Shown: piece after piece, positions 50,512-60,127 of the stretch
How the letters are laid out: the number at the start of each line of letters is the position of its first letter
Numbering within the stretch: the first letter of the stretch is position 1
DNA from: Synechococcus sp. CB0101
Lineage (GTDB): Bacteria > Cyanobacteriota > Cyanobacteriia > PCC-6307 > Cyanobiaceae
Direction of reading: 5' to 3'
DNA length: 64,000 bases
Assembly (NCBI RefSeq): GCF_000179235.2
Contig: NZ_CP039373.1
Coordinates: 1,891,860 to 1,955,859, forward strand
Made by a program: the position numbers and the translations under genes
The notes under the pieces: model-generated
Databases searched by the model: none
The model's input: the letters and a program-made list of their open reading frames with translations, nothing else
Told to the model about the DNA's origin: nothing

Positions 50512-50584
50512 GCCGGGATAGCTCAGTTGGTAGAGCAGGCGATTGAAAATCGCCGTGTCCCCAGTTCAAATCTGGGTCCTGGCA
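50512..50584 (+). tRNA. trnF-GAA: tRNA-Phe (anticodon GAA)
   Basis: The 73-nt cloverleaf has acceptor stem GCCGGGA/TCCTGGC (one G-T pair), D arm AGCTCAGTTGGTAGAGC, anticodon stem CGATT/AATCG around loop TGAAAAT-type with anticodon GAA, and T arm CAGTTCAAATCTG. CCA is not encoded. Confidence 0.97.
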
Positions 50585-50898: not shown

Positions 50899-51492
50899 AT
50901 GTCCAGCCCCCTTGCTCGTCTGCTGCGCCAGCTGAGCGCTGGTTTCAGCAATCAGCAGCAGGCCTTCGACAATCCGCCCCTCTACGCCCACATCCTGGTG
51001 AAGTTCCGGCCGCTGCCGCAGCTGGAGCCAGGCTCCCTGCTGCTGGATCAGTCGTATGCCATCAATCCGGCTGCTCCCTATCGCCTGAGGGTGCTGCGGG
51101 CGGAGCAGCGCGGCACTGAGCTGATCATCACCAACCAGGCCATCGCCGATGAGCAGCGCTTCTGGGGCGCCGTCGACGATCCCGAGAAGCGGGCTCAGAT
51201 CAAGGTTGCCGATCTCAAGTCCCTCGAGGGCTGCGCCTATGTGGTGCGCGAAACCGCCGATGGCTTCATCGGTGAGGTGGAGCCGGGCTGCCGCTGCATG
51301 GTGGAGCGCAAGGGGGCGTTGTCGTATCTGGTGAGCAGCTTTGAGCTCAGCGGCCGCGGCATGCGCACCATCGATCGGGGTCACGATCCCGCCACCCATG
51401 AGCAGCTGTGGGGATCGCTGGCGGGGCCGTTTGAATTCGAGCGCACCGACGACTACAGCCACGAATTACCGGCCGATTGGTTGGCTGCGTAA
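50899..51492 (+). CDS. cpcT: Phycobiliprotein lyase CpcT
   Basis: A 197-residue CpcT/CpeT-type bilin lyase, a lipocalin-like beta barrel. Seen are LARLLRQLSAGFSNQQQAFDNP, cited partly, and the family signatures PLYAHILVKFRPLPQL, YRLRVLRAEQRG, DLKSLEGCAYVVRETADG and GCRCMVERKG. CpcT attaches phycocyanobilin to Cys153 of the phycocyanin beta chain, and both cpcB copies here carry that cysteine. It opens the phycobilisome region. No phycoerythrin genes are in the window, so CpcT rather than CpeT is the natural reading. Confidence 0.9.
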   Translation: MSSPLARLLRQLSAGFSNQQQAFDNPPLYAHILVKFRPLPQLEPGSLLLDQSYAINPAAPYRLRVLRAEQRGTELIITNQAIADEQRFWGAVDDPEKRAQIKVADLKSLEGCAYVVRETADGFIGEVEPGCRCMVERKGALSYLVSSFELSGRGMRTIDRGHDPATHEQLWGSLAGPFEFERTDDYSHELPADWLAA

Positions 51493-51578: not shown

Positions 51579-52325
51579 ATGGCCCTCCCGCTGCTGGCCA
51601 CCAAGCCGATCACCCAAAACGCTCGGGTGAACAACTTCTGCATCGGCACGGATGAAGCGCCGCGCACCCAAGTGGATGTGGATGAGCAGATCGAGCGTGC
51701 TTATCGCCAGATCTTCTTCCATGCCTTCAAGGTGGATCGCGAGCCGATGCTCGAGATGCAGTTCCGCAACGGCGATCTCACCGCCCGCGATTTCGTACGC
51801 GGTTTGCTCCTCTCCCGCAAATTCCGCGACGGCTTTTACCGCTGCAACAGCAACTACCGGGTGGTGGAGCAGATCGTGGGTCGCGTGCTCGGCCGCGAGG
51901 TGCATGGCGATCAGGAGCGCATCGCCTGGTCGATCGTGATTGCCAATCAGGGGCTGGAAGGTTTCGTGGATGCCCTGCTGAATTCGCAGGAGTATCTCGA
52001 GGCCTTCGGTTTGGAAACCGTGCCTTATCAGCGCTCCCGCGTGTTGGCCGGCCATGCCAAACCGCAGCTTCCTTTTAACCAACAAGCGCCTCGCTACAAC
52101 GCCTACTGGCGTGATGCCAGCGCTCGCCGCGCCCCGGCCAACCCCTTTGCCGGTGGCGGTGCTCAGTTCAGCGGCGGTCAGATGTCAGCCGCCTGGGTGG
52201 GCGGCCAGCCCCCCAAGCTGGCGCAAACCATCTGGCTGGCCCTGGCTGCCATCGGTGGTTTGGAGGTGCTGCGGGTGCTGCTCACCTCAGCCGGCGCCAT
52301 GCTCGGCACCGGCTCCGCCGGTTGA
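51579..52325 (+). CDS. cpcG: Phycobilisome linker CpcG, CpcL-like
   Basis: A 248-residue linker. Residues ~1-180 are the PBS linker domain, starting LPLLATKPITQNARV and containing DEQIERAYRQIFFHAF and FRNGDLTARDFVRGLLLS. A glycine-rich stretch (190-210) leads to a hydrophobic segment at about 217-241 (TIWLALAAIGGLEVLRVLL). Rod-core linkers (CpcG1) lack such a segment, whereas CpcL (CpcG2) uses it to anchor core-less phycocyanin rods to the membrane near photosystem I. One Glu and one Arg lie within it, so membrane insertion is uncertain. No other cpcG is in the window. Confidence 0.85.
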   Translation: MALPLLATKPITQNARVNNFCIGTDEAPRTQVDVDEQIERAYRQIFFHAFKVDREPMLEMQFRNGDLTARDFVRGLLLSRKFRDGFYRCNSNYRVVEQIVGRVLGREVHGDQERIAWSIVIANQGLEGFVDALLNSQEYLEAFGLETVPYQRSRVLAGHAKPQLPFNQQAPRYNAYWRDASARRAPANPFAGGGAQFSGGQMSAAWVGGQPPKLAQTIWLALAAIGGLEVLRVLLTSAGAMLGTGSAG

Positions 52326-52328
52326 GCC

Positions 52329-52733
52329 TCAGGCGCTCAATTCATCCATGAAGGGCTGTTCCTCGTCCTCTTCCGGGAAGGGGTTCAGCTCCAGTTCAGG
52401 CTCGTTGAAGTCAGCGTCGTGGGCGTTGGCTTCCGGCGTGGGCCTTTGCAGCGGATGCACGGTGGCGCGCTGCGGTGCGCTTTGCTCCGTGAGCAGATCC
52501 TCCAGCCGTGCAATTCGCTCTTCGGTGGCGGTGAGCATGTCGGCGGAATCGTTGCTGAGGGTGTTGCTCTGAAGGTGCTGCAATCCCTCCAGTTGCCCCT
52601 CTAATGCGCTCAGTCGTTCCTCCAGTTCCAGGAGCCGCAGCGTGAGGGTTTCACTCACCAGGCTGAGGGCCTGCATCTGTTCGCTGAGCCGCAGTTGCAA
52701 CGCTCCAGCACTGGGGGACGCGCTCGCTGACAT
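52329..52733 (-). CDS. Coiled-coil hypothetical protein
   Basis: A 134-residue protein encoded opposite to the surrounding cpc genes. Residues ~15-90 form a likely coiled coil with leucine heptads (LRLLELEERLSALEGQLEG and TATEERIARLEDLL). The rest is disordered and acidic, ending FPEEDEEQPFMDELSA. There is no membrane helix. I do not recognise a family. The position between cpcG and cpcC1 might mean a structural or assembly role for phycobilisomes, but nothing in the sequence proves it. Confidence 0.65.
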   Translation of the reverse strand: MSASASPSAGALQLRLSEQMQALSLVSETLTLRLLELEERLSALEGQLEGLQHLQSNTLSNDSADMLTATEERIARLEDLLTEQSAPQRATVHPLQRPTPEANAHDADFNEPELELNPFPEEDEEQPFMDELSA

Positions 52734-52949: not shown

Positions 52950-53795
52950 ATGACCCTCGCCAACGCTGCCTATCTGGGCATCGAGCGTTACGCCAACAAT
53001 CGCGTCAATGAGAACTGGATGACCGGTTCTGCTGACGACAAGACTGCGCTCATCCGCGCCGTGTACCAGCAGGTGCTCGGTAACCAATACGTGATGTCCA
53101 GCGAGCGGCTGGAGGGTCCCGAGTCGTTGTTCAAGCGTGGCTATCTGAGCGTTCGCGAGTTTGTGCGCCAGGTGGCGAAGAGTGGTCTCTATCGCAAGAA
53201 GTTCTTCGAGAGCACCAACCCCTACCGCTTCATTGAGCTCAACTTCAAGCACCTGCTCGGTCGCGCTCCCCAGAACAAGGCGGAGATGCTGCACCACTTC
53301 ACGATCCTGCAGGAGCAGGGTTTCGACGCCGAGATCGACTCCTACCTCGACAGCGCTGAGTATCAAGAGCGCTTCGGTGAGGAAGGCGTGCCTTACCTGC
53401 ACGGCTGGAACTACTCCACCGGTCAGCAGGGCCTGCAGTTCTCCTACATGCTGCAGCTGGCCCGCGGTGCCGCTGCTTCCGTGAAGGGCGACATCACCAA
53501 GAATCAGTCGCGTCTCAATCCCTCCGTGCACGCTGAGCTGCCGGTGCCGGTGGTGAGCCCGATCGCCAAGGGCAACGTGTTCCGCAAGGTGGGCACTGAT
53601 GGTGTGACCCGCCAGGGCGTGGGTTCCGGCGAAGAAGGTCGCACCTTCCGCGTGGAGATCACCGGCTTCAACAACTACCGCCTGCACAAGCGCAGCAATC
53701 GCGTGCGCTTCATCCCCTTCAACAAGCTGCTCGAGTACCAGCAGCAGATCCACCGCGAAGGCGGCCGGATCGCCAGCATCACTCCGGTCAACTGA
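52950..53795 (+). CDS. cpcC: Phycocyanin rod linker CpcC (copy 1)
   Basis: A 281-residue rod linker. The N-terminal PBS linker domain (residues ~1-185) starts MTLANAAYLGIERYANNR and contains SLFKRGYLSVREFVRQVAKS and ELNFKHLLGRAPQNKAEML. The C-terminal CpcD-like domain starts with FRVEITGFNNYRLHKRSNRV and ends GGRIASITPVN. It joins phycocyanin hexamers within rods. It is about three-quarters identical by eye to cpcC2 and is followed 36 bp later by cpcD. The start is set by the conserved N-terminus. Confidence 0.96.
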   Translation: MTLANAAYLGIERYANNRVNENWMTGSADDKTALIRAVYQQVLGNQYVMSSERLEGPESLFKRGYLSVREFVRQVAKSGLYRKKFFESTNPYRFIELNFKHLLGRAPQNKAEMLHHFTILQEQGFDAEIDSYLDSAEYQERFGEEGVPYLHGWNYSTGQQGLQFSYMLQLARGAAASVKGDITKNQSRLNPSVHAELPVPVVSPIAKGNVFRKVGTDGVTRQGVGSGEEGRTFRVEITGFNNYRLHKRSNRVRFIPFNKLLEYQQQIHREGGRIASITPVN

Positions 53796-53831: not shown

Positions 53832-54047
53832 ATGAAGGTTTCTGCAGGCAACCGCGGCACCAGCTTCAGCAACGACCGCCAGGTGTCATTCACCGTGACC
53901 GGTCTGGCCAACAACGACTACTCCCGCACTGCGGATGTGGTCATGAACGTGCCCTACACCCGCATGAACGAGACCATGCGTCTCGTGCAGCGCATGGGCG
54001 GCAAGATCACCGCCGTGAATGTCACCGGCGGCATCGACGCTGAGTGA
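53832..54047 (+). CDS. cpcD: Phycocyanin rod-capping linker CpcD
   Basis: A 71-residue protein consisting of one CpcD domain: FTVTGLANNDYSRTADVVMN and a closing MGGKITAVNVTGG. It caps the outer end of rods and limits their length. The fold equals the C-terminal domain of CpcC. It is the second gene of the cpcC1-cpcD unit and is followed by a terminator. Only one cpcD exists for the two cpcC and cpcBA copies. Confidence 0.95.
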   Translation: MKVSAGNRGTSFSNDRQVSFTVTGLANNDYSRTADVVMNVPYTRMNETMRLVQRMGGKITAVNVTGGIDAE

Positions 54048-54306: not shown

Positions 54307-54399
54307 GACCAGGCCAAGCGATGAGGCGGTTTCGGCCAGCTCCTCGGTTTGGCCCCTCATCCCCCCTCCCCGACTCACGTCGAGAACAGGAGCTTCTCA

Positions 54400-54918
54400 A
54401 TGTTCGACGCCTTCACCAAGGTCGTTGCCCAGGCTGATGCCCGCGGCGAATTCCTGAACGCTGGTCAAATCGACGCCCTTTCGGCGATGGTTGGCGACAG
54501 CTTCAAGCGTATGGATGCTGTGAACCGCATCACCTCCAACGCTTCCAAGATCGTCACCAACGCTGCTCGCGAACTGTTCGACCAGCAGCCCGCTCTGATC
54601 GCCCCCGGCGGCAACGCGTACACCCACCGTCGCATGGCTGCTTGCCTGCGCGACATGGAGATCGTGCTGCGCTACGTGACCTACGCGATCTTCACCGGCG
54701 ACGCTTCCGTGCTGGAAGACCGCTGCCTGAACGGCCTGCGTGAGACCTATCTGGCTCTGGGCGTTCCTGGCGCTTCCGTGGCCGAAGGCATCCGCAAGAT
54801 GAAGGACGCCGCCATCTCGATCGCCAACGATCGCAACGGCATCACCCCCGGCGACTGCTCCGCTCTGATGAGCGAGATCGGCACCTACTTCGATCGCGCT
54901 GCTGCTGCTGTTGCCTGA
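54400..54918 (+). CDS. cpcB: Phycocyanin beta subunit (copy 1)
   Basis: A 172-residue phycobiliprotein with the globin-like fold. Bilin sites are Cys82 in MAACLRD and Cys153 in TPGDCSAL; Cys109 is the conserved free cysteine, and Asn72 in GGNAYTHRR is the methylated residue of the family. A ribosome-binding site AGGAG lies 7 bp before the ATG. CpcT would load Cys153; the Cys82 lyase (CpcS/U type) is not in the window. Identical to cpcB2. The second gene cpcA1 follows after 54 bp. Confidence 0.99.
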
Positions 54919-54972
54919 GGCAACGCTGCTCCGCGTCATTTCTAGGTCCACCCTTCTTCTTCACTTCGAACA

Positions 54973-55461
54973 ATGAAGACCCCCCTCACCGAAGCCGTTG
55001 CAGCCGCTGATTCCCAGGGCCGCTTCCTGAGCAACACCGAGCTGAACGCCGCTTTCGGCCGTTTCGAGCGCGCTGCCAACGCTCTGGCTGCTGCCAAGGC
55101 TCTGACCGCCAAGGCTGACGAACTGGTGAACGGCGCTGCCCAGGCCGTTTACAACAAGTTCCCCTACACCACCCAGATGCAGGGCAGCAACTACGCCTCC
55201 GACGCGCGCGGTAAGGCCAAGTGCGCCCGTGACATCGGCTACTACCTGCGTCAGGTGACCTACTGCCTGGTTGCTGGTGGCACCGGCCCCATCGACGAGT
55301 ACCTGATCGCAGGTCTCGACGAGATCAACCGTGCGTTCGAGCTCTCCCCCTCCTGGTATGTGGAAGCTCTGAACTACATCAAGGCCAACCACGGCATCTC
55401 CGGCGACGCCGGCGTGATCGCCAACAACTACATCGACTACGCGATCGCCGCTCTGGTCTGA
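54973..55461 (+). CDS. cpcA: Phycocyanin alpha subunit (copy 1)
   Basis: A 162-residue alpha chain. Cys84 in [14 protein letters not shown] is the single bilin site, loaded by CpcE/CpcF encoded downstream. It starts [18 protein letters not shown] and ends [12 protein letters not shown]. Length and motifs are normal. Identical to cpcA2. It is followed by a terminator that lies partly outside the repeat. Confidence 0.99.
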
Positions 55462-55497
55462 TTTTCAGATTCACAGCGCAACCGCGAGTTGCCCCGA

Positions 55498-55519
55498 GCC
55501 CCCGCAAGGGGGCTTTTTT
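55498..55519 (+). terminator. Intrinsic terminator after cpcA1
   Basis: GCCCCC/GGGGGC with a GCAA loop and six Ts. The large repeat ends inside the left arm, so the loop and right arm differ from the cpcA2 terminator. Confidence 0.95.
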
Positions 55520-55701: not shown

Positions 55702-56556
55702 ATGACCCTGGTTAATGCCGCCTATCTGGGCATCGAACGCTTTGCCAACGACCGCAACAATGAAAATTGGTCGGCTGGCTCCAGCCAGAGCGACAAAGCC
55801 GCGTTGATTCGTGCGGTGTATCGCCAGGTGCTGGGTTATCAATATGTGATGGAGAGCGAGCGCCTCACCGGGGCGGAGTCGTTGTTTCGCAACGGTTATC
55901 TGAGTGTGCGTGAATTCGTGAGGGCGGTGGCCAAGAGCGGTTTGTATCGCTCGAAATTCTTCGAAAACACCAATCCGTATCACTTCATCGAGCTCAACTT
56001 CAAGCACCTGCTCGGCCGTGCGCCCCAGGGGCGCGACGAGATGCTGCATCACTTCACGATCCTCCAGGAGCAGGGTTACGATGCCGAGATTGATTCCTAT
56101 CTCGATAGCGCTGAGTATCAGGAGCGCTTCGGTGAGGAGCAGGTGCCCTTCCTGCATGGTTGGGATTACTCCAAGGGGCATGCGGGCCGTCAGTTCTCCT
56201 GGCTGATGCAGCTCACCCGTGGTGCTGCTGCTTCGGTGAAAGGCGAGATCACCGGCATTGCCTCCCGTCTGGGCCCCGCCCTGCACCAGAACCGTGCCGT
56301 ACCCGTGGTGAGCCCCAACGCCGGTGGCTCCGCCGTGCAGCCGGCGGGCGTGGCCAGCACCGCCATCACGGCCATGGCCCAGGGCATCGGCCAGAAGGCA
56401 CGCGTGTATCGCGTGGAGGTCACCGGCCTCAACAACTACCGCTTGCACAAGCGCAGCAACACCGTGCGCTTCATCCCCTTCGACAAAATGCTGGAGGCCC
56501 AGCAGCAGATTCACCGCCAGGGCGGCCGGGTGGCCAGTGTCACCCCGGTGAACTGA
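55702..56556 (+). CDS. cpcC: Phycocyanin rod linker CpcC (copy 2)
   Basis: A 284-residue paralogue of cpcC1 with the same two domains: PBS linker (MTLVNAAYLGIERFANDR at the start, RNGYLSVREFVRAVAKSGLY) and CpcD-like end (YRVEVTGLNNYRLHKRSNTV). The two linkers are most alike in residues 1-180 and at the C-terminus, and differ in the connecting stretch (~195-225), where copy 2 has ALHQNRAVPVVSPNAGGSA. They may join different hexamer pairs, like CpcH and CpcI of Synechococcus elongatus. It is a single-gene unit between two terminators. Confidence 0.95.
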   Translation: MTLVNAAYLGIERFANDRNNENWSAGSSQSDKAALIRAVYRQVLGYQYVMESERLTGAESLFRNGYLSVREFVRAVAKSGLYRSKFFENTNPYHFIELNFKHLLGRAPQGRDEMLHHFTILQEQGYDAEIDSYLDSAEYQERFGEEQVPFLHGWDYSKGHAGRQFSWLMQLTRGAAASVKGEITGIASRLGPALHQNRAVPVVSPNAGGSAVQPAGVASTAITAMAQGIGQKARVYRVEVTGLNNYRLHKRSNTVRFIPFDKMLEAQQQIHRQGGRVASVTPVN

Positions 56557-56747: not shown

Positions 56748-56912
56748 GCTTGGGTCAGCGATCAAACAAACCGTTCAACACTCCGTTGTTTCGGTATTGG
56801 GTGATTGTGACCATCGCGATCAGCGCGCAACAGGGTTGACCTTCAGCCCCCTTGCTGTTGATGGCACCCCTCATCCCCCTCCCCGACTCACGTCGAGAAC
56901 AGGAGCTTCTCA

Positions 56913-57431
56913 ATGTTCGACGCCTTCACCAAGGTCGTTGCCCAGGCTGATGCCCGCGGCGAATTCCTGAACGCTGGTCAAATCGACGCCCTTTCGGCGA
57001 TGGTTGGCGACAGCTTCAAGCGTATGGATGCTGTGAACCGCATCACCTCCAACGCTTCCAAGATCGTCACCAACGCTGCTCGCGAACTGTTCGACCAGCA
57101 GCCCGCTCTGATCGCCCCCGGCGGCAACGCGTACACCCACCGTCGCATGGCTGCTTGCCTGCGCGACATGGAGATCGTGCTGCGCTACGTGACCTACGCG
57201 ATCTTCACCGGCGACGCTTCCGTGCTGGAAGACCGCTGCCTGAACGGCCTGCGTGAGACCTATCTGGCTCTGGGCGTTCCTGGCGCTTCCGTGGCCGAAG
57301 GCATCCGCAAGATGAAGGACGCCGCCATCTCGATCGCCAACGATCGCAACGGCATCACCCCCGGCGACTGCTCCGCTCTGATGAGCGAGATCGGCACCTA
57401 CTTCGATCGCGCTGCTGCTGCTGTTGCCTGA
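56913..57431 (+). CDS. cpcB: Phycocyanin beta subunit (copy 2)
   Basis: Its 172 residues are the same as cpcB1, with bilin cysteines 82 and 153, free Cys109 and Asn72. The DNA also looks the same, so synonymous sites have not diverged, pointing to recent duplication or continuing gene conversion. What differs is the region more than 38 bp before the ATG, so expression may be controlled separately. Confidence 0.99.
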
Positions 57432-57485
57432 GGCAACGCTGCTCCGCGTCATTTCTAGGTCCACCCTTCTTCTTCACTTCGAACA

Positions 57486-57974
57486 ATGAAGACCCCCCTC
57501 ACCGAAGCCGTTGCAGCCGCTGATTCCCAGGGCCGCTTCCTGAGCAACACCGAGCTGAACGCCGCTTTCGGCCGTTTCGAGCGCGCTGCCAACGCTCTGG
57601 CTGCTGCCAAGGCTCTGACCGCCAAGGCTGACGAACTGGTGAACGGCGCTGCCCAGGCCGTTTACAACAAGTTCCCCTACACCACCCAGATGCAGGGCAG
57701 CAACTACGCCTCCGACGCGCGCGGTAAGGCCAAGTGCGCCCGTGACATCGGCTACTACCTGCGTCAGGTGACCTACTGCCTGGTTGCTGGTGGCACCGGC
57801 CCCATCGACGAGTACCTGATCGCAGGTCTCGACGAGATCAACCGTGCGTTCGAGCTCTCCCCCTCCTGGTATGTGGAAGCTCTGAACTACATCAAGGCCA
57901 ACCACGGCATCTCCGGCGACGCCGGCGTGATCGCCAACAACTACATCGACTACGCGATCGCCGCTCTGGTCTGA
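57486..57974 (+). CDS. cpcA: Phycocyanin alpha subunit (copy 2)
   Basis: Its 162 residues are the same as cpcA1, with bilin site Cys84. It follows cpcB2 after the same 54-bp spacer. Downstream, a terminator of slightly different sequence stands between it and cpcE. The arrangement cpcB2A2-cpcE-cpcF recalls the second cpc set of Synechococcus elongatus. Confidence 0.99.
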
Positions 57975-58010
57975 TTTTCAGATTCACAGCGCAACCGCGA
58001 GTTGCCCCGA

Positions 58011-58035
58011 GCCCCCCGAAAGGGGGGCTTTTTTT
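58011..58035 (+). terminator. Intrinsic terminator after cpcA2
   Basis: GCCCCCC/GGGGGGC with a GAAA loop and seven Ts. It ends 16 bp before the chosen cpcE start, leaving no space for a separate promoter. Confidence 0.95.
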
Positions 58036-58972: not shown

Positions 58973-59646
58973 GCACTTCTGTGATGACCCCATCGGATGT
59001 GGCGGCCCTGGTGGAGGCCGTGCAGCGCGCCGATAGCGCTTTAGGCCTTCTGCAGGCCACCCAAGCCCTTGCCGCCTCCGCCCATCCCGATGGTGCGACC
59101 TGCCTGGTGGAGGTGCTGGGCTTCAACAACCCTGGCGCTGCCGTGGCCGCCGTTGATGGCCTGATCGCCATCGGCGTGCCTGCCGTTGACACGATCCTCT
59201 CCAACATCGACGGCTACAACTACGGCGCTCGTGCCTGGGCCGTGCGCGCCCTGGCCGGCATCGGTGATGTGCGCGGCCTGGAGGTGCTCGAAGATGCCCT
59301 CGGCAAAGACATCGGCCCCAGCGTGCGCCGTGCGGCGGCCCGGGGTCTTGGGCAATTGCGGCTCGATGCGCTTCCGCCACCGCAGCGCCGCGCCACGGCT
59401 GAGCGCTGCTTGCACGCCTTGGTGGAGGGTTGCCGCGATGGTGAGTGGGTGGTGCGTTACGCCGTGGTGGTGGGGCTTGAATCGCTCGCGCCCGCCGTGC
59501 ATCCCGAGCTGGCCGAGGGGCCCGTTGCGCAGCAGCGCCTGCACGACGCGCTGATCGGTCTGTGCCGGAATCCAACGGAGGAGGCCCCAGTGGTGCAGCT
59601 CCGGGCCGCCCTGGCCCTGCAGCGCCTGGGGGTGAACCATGGCTGA
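58969..59646 (+). CDS. cpcF: Phycocyanin alpha-subunit bilin lyase, CpcF
   Basis: A 225-residue HEAT-repeat partner of CpcE with a GTG start overlapping the cpcE stop codon. Repeats include ATQALAASAHPDGATCLVEV, VDGLIAIGVPAVDTILSN and ARAWAVRALAGIGDVRGLEV, as well as RDGEWVVRYAVVVGLESL. CpcE and CpcF form a heterodimer and also move the bilin off again. Its end overlaps the phosphatase start by 8 bp. Confidence 0.92.
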   Translation: MSTSVMTPSDVAALVEAVQRADSALGLLQATQALAASAHPDGATCLVEVLGFNNPGAAVAAVDGLIAIGVPAVDTILSNIDGYNYGARAWAVRALAGIGDVRGLEVLEDALGKDIGPSVRRAAARGLGQLRLDALPPPQRRATAERCLHALVEGCRDGEWVVRYAVVVGLESLAPAVHPELAEGPVAQQRLHDALIGLCRNPTEEAPVVQLRAALALQRLGVNHG

Positions 59647-60127
59647 GCAGCGCCTGTTGTTTGTCTGCCTCGGCAACATCTGCCGCTCACCGGCCGCCGA
59701 GGGGGTGTTTTTGCACCTGATCGCCCGCGAGGGTCTGGAAGATCGCTTTGTGGTGGATAGCGCCGGCACCGGTGGCTGGCACGTGGGCAACCCCGCGGAT
59801 CGGCGCATGCGCGCCGCCGCGGAGCGCCGCGGCATTCATCTGCCCAGCCGCGCGCGCCAGATCGAGCTGGCGGATTTCAGCGCCTTCGATCGCATCCTCA
59901 CCATGGATGACGACAACCTGCGCAACGTGCGTTCTCTGGCGCGCGAACTGCGGGATCGGCCGGGTCTGGCGAGGATTGAGCCGATGACCAGCCACTGCCG
60001 CCAGCACCGGGCCAGCGAGGTGCCCGATCCCTATTACGGAGGCGAGCAGGGCTTCGAGCATGTGCTCGATCTGCTGGAGGATGCCTGCGGTGGGCTGCTC
60101 GAGAGCCTGCTGCGCGAGGAGCGCTAG
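59639..60127 (+). CDS. Low-molecular-weight protein tyrosine phosphatase
   Basis: A 162-residue phosphatase. The P loop is C10-LGNIC-R16-S (C-x5-R) and the general acid is Asp130 in PDPYYGG. All catalytic residues are present. The start overlaps cpcF by 8 bp, so it is likely translated from the cpcEF message. Such a gene borders the phycobilisome region in several Synechococcus genomes as I recall; whether it acts on phycobilisome proteins is unknown. It converges with panC-cmk (4 bp overlap). Confidence 0.93.
   Translation: MAEQRLLFVCLGNICRSPAAEGVFLHLIAREGLEDRFVVDSAGTGGWHVGNPADRRMRAAAERRGIHLPSRARQIELADFSAFDRILTMDDDNLRNVRSLARELRDRPGLARIEPMTSHCRQHRASEVPDPYYGGEQGFEHVLDLLEDACGGLLESLLREER

Follow-up and report, generated by a model that had tools for sequence, protein, structure and literature searches.

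A CpcG1-type rod linker with a predicted CpcL-like membrane anchor in the phycobilisome rod region of Synechococcus sp. CB0101

The rod region and the linker proteins of the genome

The window analysed here, a 64,000-nucleotide stretch of the Synechococcus sp. CB0101 genome, includes the phycobilisome rod region, the features of which are collected in Table 1. Among them is a cpcL-like gene, the cpcGII of Six et al. 2007, the product of which (termed here the window linker) is read from an ATG start with the N-terminus MALPLL. The two cpcBA copies of the region showed no mismatch over 1,142 bp each, suggesting that the duplication is recent or that gene conversion keeps the copies identical. 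The ORFs starting at 58034 and 58969 were assigned as cpcE and cpcF solely from where they lie.

Table 1. Features of the rod region and of the linker gene (window coordinates).
Feature	Position	Strand	Basis or remark
tRNA-Phe, bounding the rod region on the left	50512..50584	+	border as given in PMC10053587
cpcT-like gene for a bilin lyase, 86 bp before the linker gene	50899..51492	+	PF06206
cpcL-like gene (cpcGII of Six et al. 2007), 248 aa	51579..52325	+	ORF, PF00427 scan, genome-wide linker survey
PF00427 rod-linker domain, residues 31-152	51669..52034	+	Pfam, E 2.8e-37; single domain found
Variable Gly-rich spacer PFAGGGAQFSGGQMSAAWVGGQ, residues 188-212	52140..52214	+	AlphaFold2, column entropy
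Predicted membrane helix, residues 213-243	52215..52307	+	AlphaFold2, hydropathy, conservation
Glu229 codon, partner of Arg232	52263..52265	+	co-occurrence in 135 homologues
Arg232 codon, partner of Glu229	52272..52274	+	co-occurrence in 135 homologues
134-aa ORF between the linker gene and cpcC1	52329-52733	-	
cpcC1 rod linker (PF00427 and CpcD domain)	52950..53795	+	start inferred from likeness to cpcC2; scanned ORF from 52737
cpcD rod-capping linker	53832..54047	+	PF01383
cpcBA copy 1, exact 1,142-bp duplicate block	54362..55503	+	sequence comparison
cpcC2 rod linker	55702..56556	+	domain scan
cpcBA copy 2, identical to copy 1	56875..58016	+	sequence comparison
Low-molecular-weight phosphatase (ptpA), bounding the rod region on the right	59639..60127	+	PF01451

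A search of the genome, a single contig of 2,789,616 bases, gave eight PF00427 matches, namely the window linker, cpcC1, cpcC2, three matches within a single 1,041-aa reading frame at about 1.264 Mb (presumed ApcE), a CpcC-CpcD fusion and a soluble CpcG1 at 2,627,419 (2.63 Mb) with the C-terminus DYLAKVPYRSLGR. The earlier note on this DNA had described the linker gene as the only cpcG of its cluster, which this survey bears out; the note had also proposed a search for a second cpcG in the rest of the genome, and CpcG1 is that gene, so that the idea of a genome lacking one was rejected. The linker gene thus lies in the cluster running from tRNA-Phe to ptpA while cpcGI is separate and elsewhere, the arrangement by which cpcGII is recognized. 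The CpcC-CpcD fusion is a third rod linker located outside the window (L124:1375-2508, minus strand, at 172 kb of the genome), with a PF00427 domain, a CpcD domain and a long tail, and it resembles the cpcCIII chimera that Six et al. 2007 (PMC2246261) describe in WH5701.

PF01383 was matched six times in the genome, once in a 410-aa protein that also has an oxidoreductase NAD-binding domain and was taken as an FNR with a CpcD domain; FNR is said to sit at the rod ends in both kinds of phycobilisome (PMC9319322). CB0101 therefore has candidate parts for a CpcL-type rod in the form of two CpcC, a CpcD, the duplicated cpcBA and the FNR with its CpcD domain. The suggestion that the duplicated phycocyanin serves CpcL rods specifically found no support, as two identical cpcB-A operons are described for strains lacking phycoerythrin (Six et al. 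2007, PMC2246261).

The C-terminal tail and its predicted helix

The linker domain of the window linker carries the FFHAF signature of CpcG1-type proteins and in alignment lacks the two-residue insert of CpcL. The NCBIfam models for CpcG1-4 scored 142-169 bits against the protein, all far under their cut-offs of 420-440, and these models therefore do not decide its type. The glycine-rich spacer and the hydrophobic stretch that the note had reported after this domain are both present, and prediction and conservation place a hydrophobic C-terminal helix where the C-terminus of a soluble CpcG would be. The Kyte-Doolittle 19-mer maximum was 1.85 at residues 217-235 (tied with 218-236), compared with values of at most 1.12 over residues 1-178. 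This maximum was reached by 280 of 10,000 shuffles of the window linker's own tail, so that by composition alone the tail is only moderately unusual and its hydrophobicity is moderate evidence. The best 19-mer scored +2.77 kcal/mol (unfavourable) on a position-independent translocon scale and -3.26 kcal/mol (favourable) on an octanol scale.

AlphaFold2, using an alignment of 53 proteins as input, modelled a single tail helix (213-243) with mean pLDDT values of 72-79 in the blocks spanning 211-240, falling to 52 in the final block, whereas the spacer (188-207) was below 50 and the N-terminus was also of low confidence (mean pLDDT 68.2 and pTM 0.52 for the whole model). In a Foldseek comparison of this model with the PDB, CpcG chains ranked first and CpcL (8hfq) ranked 13 with a TM-score of ~0.55 (by query length). 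The only PDB match to the tail alone, with E 0.0024, was a de novo designed protein and was taken as chance.

The conservation of the tail was examined in 135 distinct tailed homologues from the picocyanobacterial lineage, collected from an order sample of genomes and from named-collection loci. Gly226 was kept in all 135, Trp219 in 134, Pro211 in 132 and Met241 in 129, and the mean column entropy fell from 2.41 bits in the spacer (185-204) to 1.52 at 217-243; as judged from these sequences, conservation is stronger evidence for an anchor than composition. Of the 135 proteins, 94 had more lysine and arginine ahead of the helix than behind it, 37 had equal numbers on both sides and four had fewer ahead of it, and this general excess on the N-terminal side suggests a cytoplasmic N-terminus.

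Tail hydropathy ranged from 1.31 to 2.51 in these 135 proteins, from 1.95 to 3.06 in 19 tailed proteins from outside the lineage and from -0.51 to 1.26 in 89 soluble proteins, the tailed and soluble classes being separated by a cut of 1.3 that was chosen after viewing the distribution and falls in a narrow gap (1.26 versus 1.31). The tail of the window linker, at 1.85, is thus less hydrophobic than all 19 outside CpcL tails. The CpcG C-terminal motif VP[YRFV]R was absent from all 135 lineage tailed proteins and all 19 outside tailed proteins; among soluble proteins it was present in 27 of the lineage's 28 paralogues and in 41 of the 61 CpcG from outside.

The note had anticipated that the internal Glu and Arg might preclude a helix. 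This objection was not upheld, as the two charges are spaced one helix turn apart and come together: Glu229 and Arg232 were both present in 69 of the 135 homologues and both replaced by other residues in the remaining 66, with no protein having a single one. In 61 of these 66, position 232 is Gly, and the median tail hydropathy was 1.87 with the pair and 1.86 without it. In a quick tree of 72 rows each charge required five changes, with one contrast only on the starred branches; this tree was built without L021, which had been collapsed into a cluster of close relatives at 88% identity. The linker domains of L021 and L144 are 97% identical, and both charges are lost in L021. The coupling has no exception in these counts but corresponds to few independent events on the tree, and it suggests, short of proving, an intramembrane ion pair between Glu229 and Arg232.

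Distribution of the tailed linkers and phylogeny of the linker domain

In the order sample of 150 genomes, 89 had a match to the window linker at E <= 1e-40 and a hydrophobic-tailed ORF was read in 84 of these. Outside the 84, matches in G025 and G058 extend to residues 242-243, and G056, G125 and G140 had a CpcG1-type match alone; G040 had a tailed match alone. Among 20 listed of the 61 genomes without a match, 18 were 1.6-1.9 Mb in size. The closest named-collection records, where very near records may be missing, were the MAG “Cyanobacteria bacterium M_surface_7_m2_037” (94%) and Vulcanococcus sp. Clear-D1 (93%).

Some genomes have more than one tailed copy. In G116, a tailed gene with the Glu-Arg pair (L020) and one without it (L039) lie ~3.5 kb apart. 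In G139, of the same genus as CB0101, one linker match (L016) has an internal stop and a second, different tailed copy nearby (L065) is intact. In G073 and G112 (L054, L055), one of two tailed copies is apparently frameshifted just before the helix, and its product would then be soluble. Two cpcGII copies with conflicting phylogenies are also reported for a Baltic contig (PMC4139726).

For the counts and the trees, 286 ORFs gave 258 distinct sequences, from which 10 were removed as short, long or open (leaving 248) and four more as rod-linker-like (two) or frameshifted (two), leaving 244; later counts also omit L114, a frameshifted soluble protein. The outside rows came from 60 stretches picked from the matches listed, plus L125. 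The main tree used 103 of the 244 rows (44 tailed and eight soluble from the lineage, 16 tailed and 35 soluble from outside) and 186 columns of the linker domain only, with the tail excluded. The tailed and soluble labels were fixed before the tree was made. The Synechocystis-type subgroup, named after the tree had been viewed, was identified through L243, which matches PDB 8hfq at 524 bits and has a near copy, L241, in the tree; the Anabaena type was identified through L265 (9wd5).

The tailed proteins of the lineage formed one group (100/85), together with CpcG1 of the lineage (100/96), and two of them, L059 and L089, were long branches. The outside tailed proteins fell at two places, 14 being of the Synechocystis type and two of the Anabaena type inside the Nostoc-type CpcG group. 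A single clade of all tailed proteins was rejected (AU p = 3.8e-11), as was a clade joining the lineage tailed proteins with the Synechocystis type (AU p = 0.0012, for a subgroup named after viewing the tree). A second quick tree of 100 main-tree rows (without L059, L089 and L025) and three rod linkers as outgroup again placed the lineage tailed proteins together in a single group (SH-aLRT 99), with the whole lineage on one side of a branch; it required two changes for the lineage soluble proteins and three for the outside tailed proteins, details that are not firm.

Signature residues agreed with this placement. In Synechocystis CpcL numbering, all 135 tailed and 28 soluble lineage proteins have a gap at Asn55 and Phe at 57, all 19 outside tailed proteins combine Asn or His at 55 with Gln at 57, and the 61 outside soluble proteins have a gap (23) or Ser (38) at 55 and Phe (23) or His (38) at 57. 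The linker domain of the window linker thus groups with CpcG1 of its lineage, apart from the known CpcL, and the CpcL of Synechocystis and Anabaena are themselves separate. Tailed rod linkers therefore occur at three distinct positions in the CpcG family tree, where change counts cannot distinguish gain from loss. Grouping with CpcG1, which the note had named as an outcome speaking against a CpcL-type protein, is true of the linker domain, and the tail is nonetheless conserved; the phylogenetic test therefore separates ancestry from function. These sequence comparisons indicate that the tail anchor was probably gained independently of the CpcL of Synechocystis and Anabaena.

An alternative is that the protein is a canonical CpcL orthologue that inherited its tail and had its linker domain overwritten by CpcG1 through gene conversion early in picocyanobacteria. 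CpcG1 and the tailed paralogue coexist, as such a conversion requires, and one of the 19 outside tailed proteins, L239 (from G151, outside the order), has a picocyanobacterial-like tail (PPK..QIWLGL; 14.9 bits, E 0.008). With whole CpcL frames set aside, the decoys scoring above L239 were four L016/L065 pieces (18.6-19.1 bits), which we take to be a broken linker copy there, and the next decoy scored 9.1. The likeness of the L239 tail hints at shared tail ancestry or at convergence. Against this, the remaining 18 outside tails were unmatched by the picocyanobacterial tail profile at E <= 50, a search of 60 genomes around that of L239 returned only L239 itself and one weak match (E 0.008), and the lineage tailed linker domains form the single, well-supported group described above. 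We regard the gene-conversion scenario as unlikely.

Proposed function and comparison with known systems

We consider it likely, with good confidence, that the window linker has a CpcG1-type linker domain and acts as a CpcL-like linker between rod and membrane. The linker domain would be seated in the basal phycocyanin hexamer and start a CpcC/CpcD rod, and the flexible spacer and one membrane helix would replace the soluble C-terminus of CpcG1, with the N-terminus in the cytoplasm and the C-terminus in the lumen. Core-less phycocyanin rods would thereby be pinned to the thylakoid, most probably beside photosystem I, which by analogy with known CpcL they probably feed, while the separate CpcG1 at 2.63 Mb would make the ordinary phycobilisomes. 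The Glu-Arg pair, carried by about half of the homologues and by the window linker among them, would lie mid-helix, where it may best be explained as an ion pair within the membrane. We lean slightly towards a more specific proposal for picocyanobacterial CpcGII as a whole, namely a CpcG1-derived anchor independent of the Synechocystis and Anabaena CpcL that maintains standing core-less rods directed to photosystem I, has a CpcG-like bilin pocket at position 57 and docks through a helix face formed by the Glu-Arg pair or by Gly232 (61 of the 66 proteins without the pair).

The protein may instead be membrane-anchored with a partner other than photosystem I, such as NDH-1, photosystem II or none that is fixed. 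The lineage tail does differ from the tails of Synechocystis and Anabaena CpcL, and an NDH-1-CpcG2-PSI supercomplex is mentioned in PMC6479007; against this, Anabaena CpcL, which has the same layout, binds photosystem I (PMC11165356), and a different partner appears improbable.

Marine Synechococcus CpcGII occupies the same slot, in a rod region that also contains cpcT, cpcC, cpcD and two identical cpcBA and that ends at the phosphatase gene, and CpcGII of WH 5701 is row L141 of the set analysed here. It was termed a rod-core linker by Six et al. 2007 (PMC2246261), the available text of which mentions no membrane segment for it (“hydrophobic” does not occur there and “transmembrane” occurs once, for unk3). 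Mass spectrometry of phycobilisomes in that study found CpcGI and not CpcGII, low expression was offered as a reason, and CpcGII was left out of a tree owing to its non-detection. In conventional preparations CpcL is preferentially found in the Triton layer (PMC12461855), so that a membrane anchor would explain why CpcGII is missing from phycobilisomes. That the protein is an ordinary second rod-core linker, the tail of which packs on the allophycocyanin core of phycobilisomes where it is a minor or conditional part, would fit the position of its linker domain with CpcG1, the FFHAF signature and an earlier sighting, cited by Six et al. 2007, in which CpcGII ran together with CpcGI in a phycobilisome fraction of WH8102, and the loss of VP[YRFV]R, also seen in 20 of 61 outside soluble CpcG, proves little alone; this reading is nevertheless highly improbable in view of the conserved hydrophobic helix with its invariant Gly226 and near-invariant Trp219, the motif's presence in nearly all soluble paralogues of the lineage and in none of its tailed proteins, and the failure to detect CpcGII in the 2007 gels.

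Neither the existence of CpcL in this lineage nor the idea that the helix was gained repeatedly is new, since a cpcL gene has been reported and rod-shaped phycobilisomes suggested for Cyanobium sp. NIVA-CYA 375 (PMC13342260) and CpcL was assigned by TMHMM tail in 42 of 65 cyanobacteria (PMC9415938). In the accessible parts of the open-licence PMC literature, no statement was found of CpcGII as a membrane-anchored linker, of a separate origin in this lineage or of the Glu-Arg pair. If the anchored reading is right, very abundant phototrophs would have a membrane anchor in what has long been classed as their second rod-core linker, the absence of its product from phycobilisomes purified in 2007 would have a reason, and a second, core-less antenna would be predicted in Cyanobium and marine Synechococcus. 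It would also be a case of repeated evolution, showing what the docking of rods on the membrane needs, and the trait to annotate would be the tail rather than a CpcL clade or CpcL residues.

Among the closest known systems is CpcL of Synechocystis sp. PCC 6803 (formerly CpcG2, PDB 8hfq), which shares with the window linker a PF00427 domain followed by one hydrophobic C-terminal segment and no VP[YRFV]R ending. Specifically, Arg112, Ile129, Leu136, Phe139, Arg181 and Tyr182 of Synechocystis CpcL are identical in the window linker, whereas the two-residue insert and Gln57 are lacking (the latter being Phe, as in CpcG1) and Arg178, Arg163 and Pro137 are replaced by Gln, Ser and Glu, respectively. 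In Synechocystis CpcL, Gln57 and Arg178, which diverge from CpcG, are close to ring D of a particular basal bilin (PMC10322944). They were considered as the cause of the 668-nm red shift and dropped, as the same paper assigns the shift to another bilin; the residues linked to the red-shifted CpcL bilin are Leu136, Pro137 and Phe139 (PMC10322944), which are Leu, Glu and Phe in the window linker. The Synechocystis CpcL tail is unmatched by the picocyanobacterial tail profile, and its linker domain belongs to a different clade.

CpcL of Anabaena sp. PCC 7120 (CpcG3; PDB 9wd5, 9w4j, 9w7k) has the same layout as the window linker and was identified in photosystem I fractions (PMC11165356). The Anabaena type takes the third position on the tree, inside Nostoc-type CpcG, and, unlike the window linker, has both the insert and Gln57. 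The CpcG1 of CB0101 itself shares the FFHAF linker type and 51% aa identity over 186 aligned positions with the window linker and differs in its locus and in its soluble tail, which ends in DYLAKVPYRSLGR. The classification of the protein as a membrane-anchored CpcL type in the earlier note thus holds for its CpcL-like layout, predicted anchor and available rod parts and not for its linker domain, which falls outside both known CpcL groups. From the layout shared with CpcL, the expected job of the window linker would be to initiate a rod and tether it to the membrane, and the name CpcL is probably right for this way of working.
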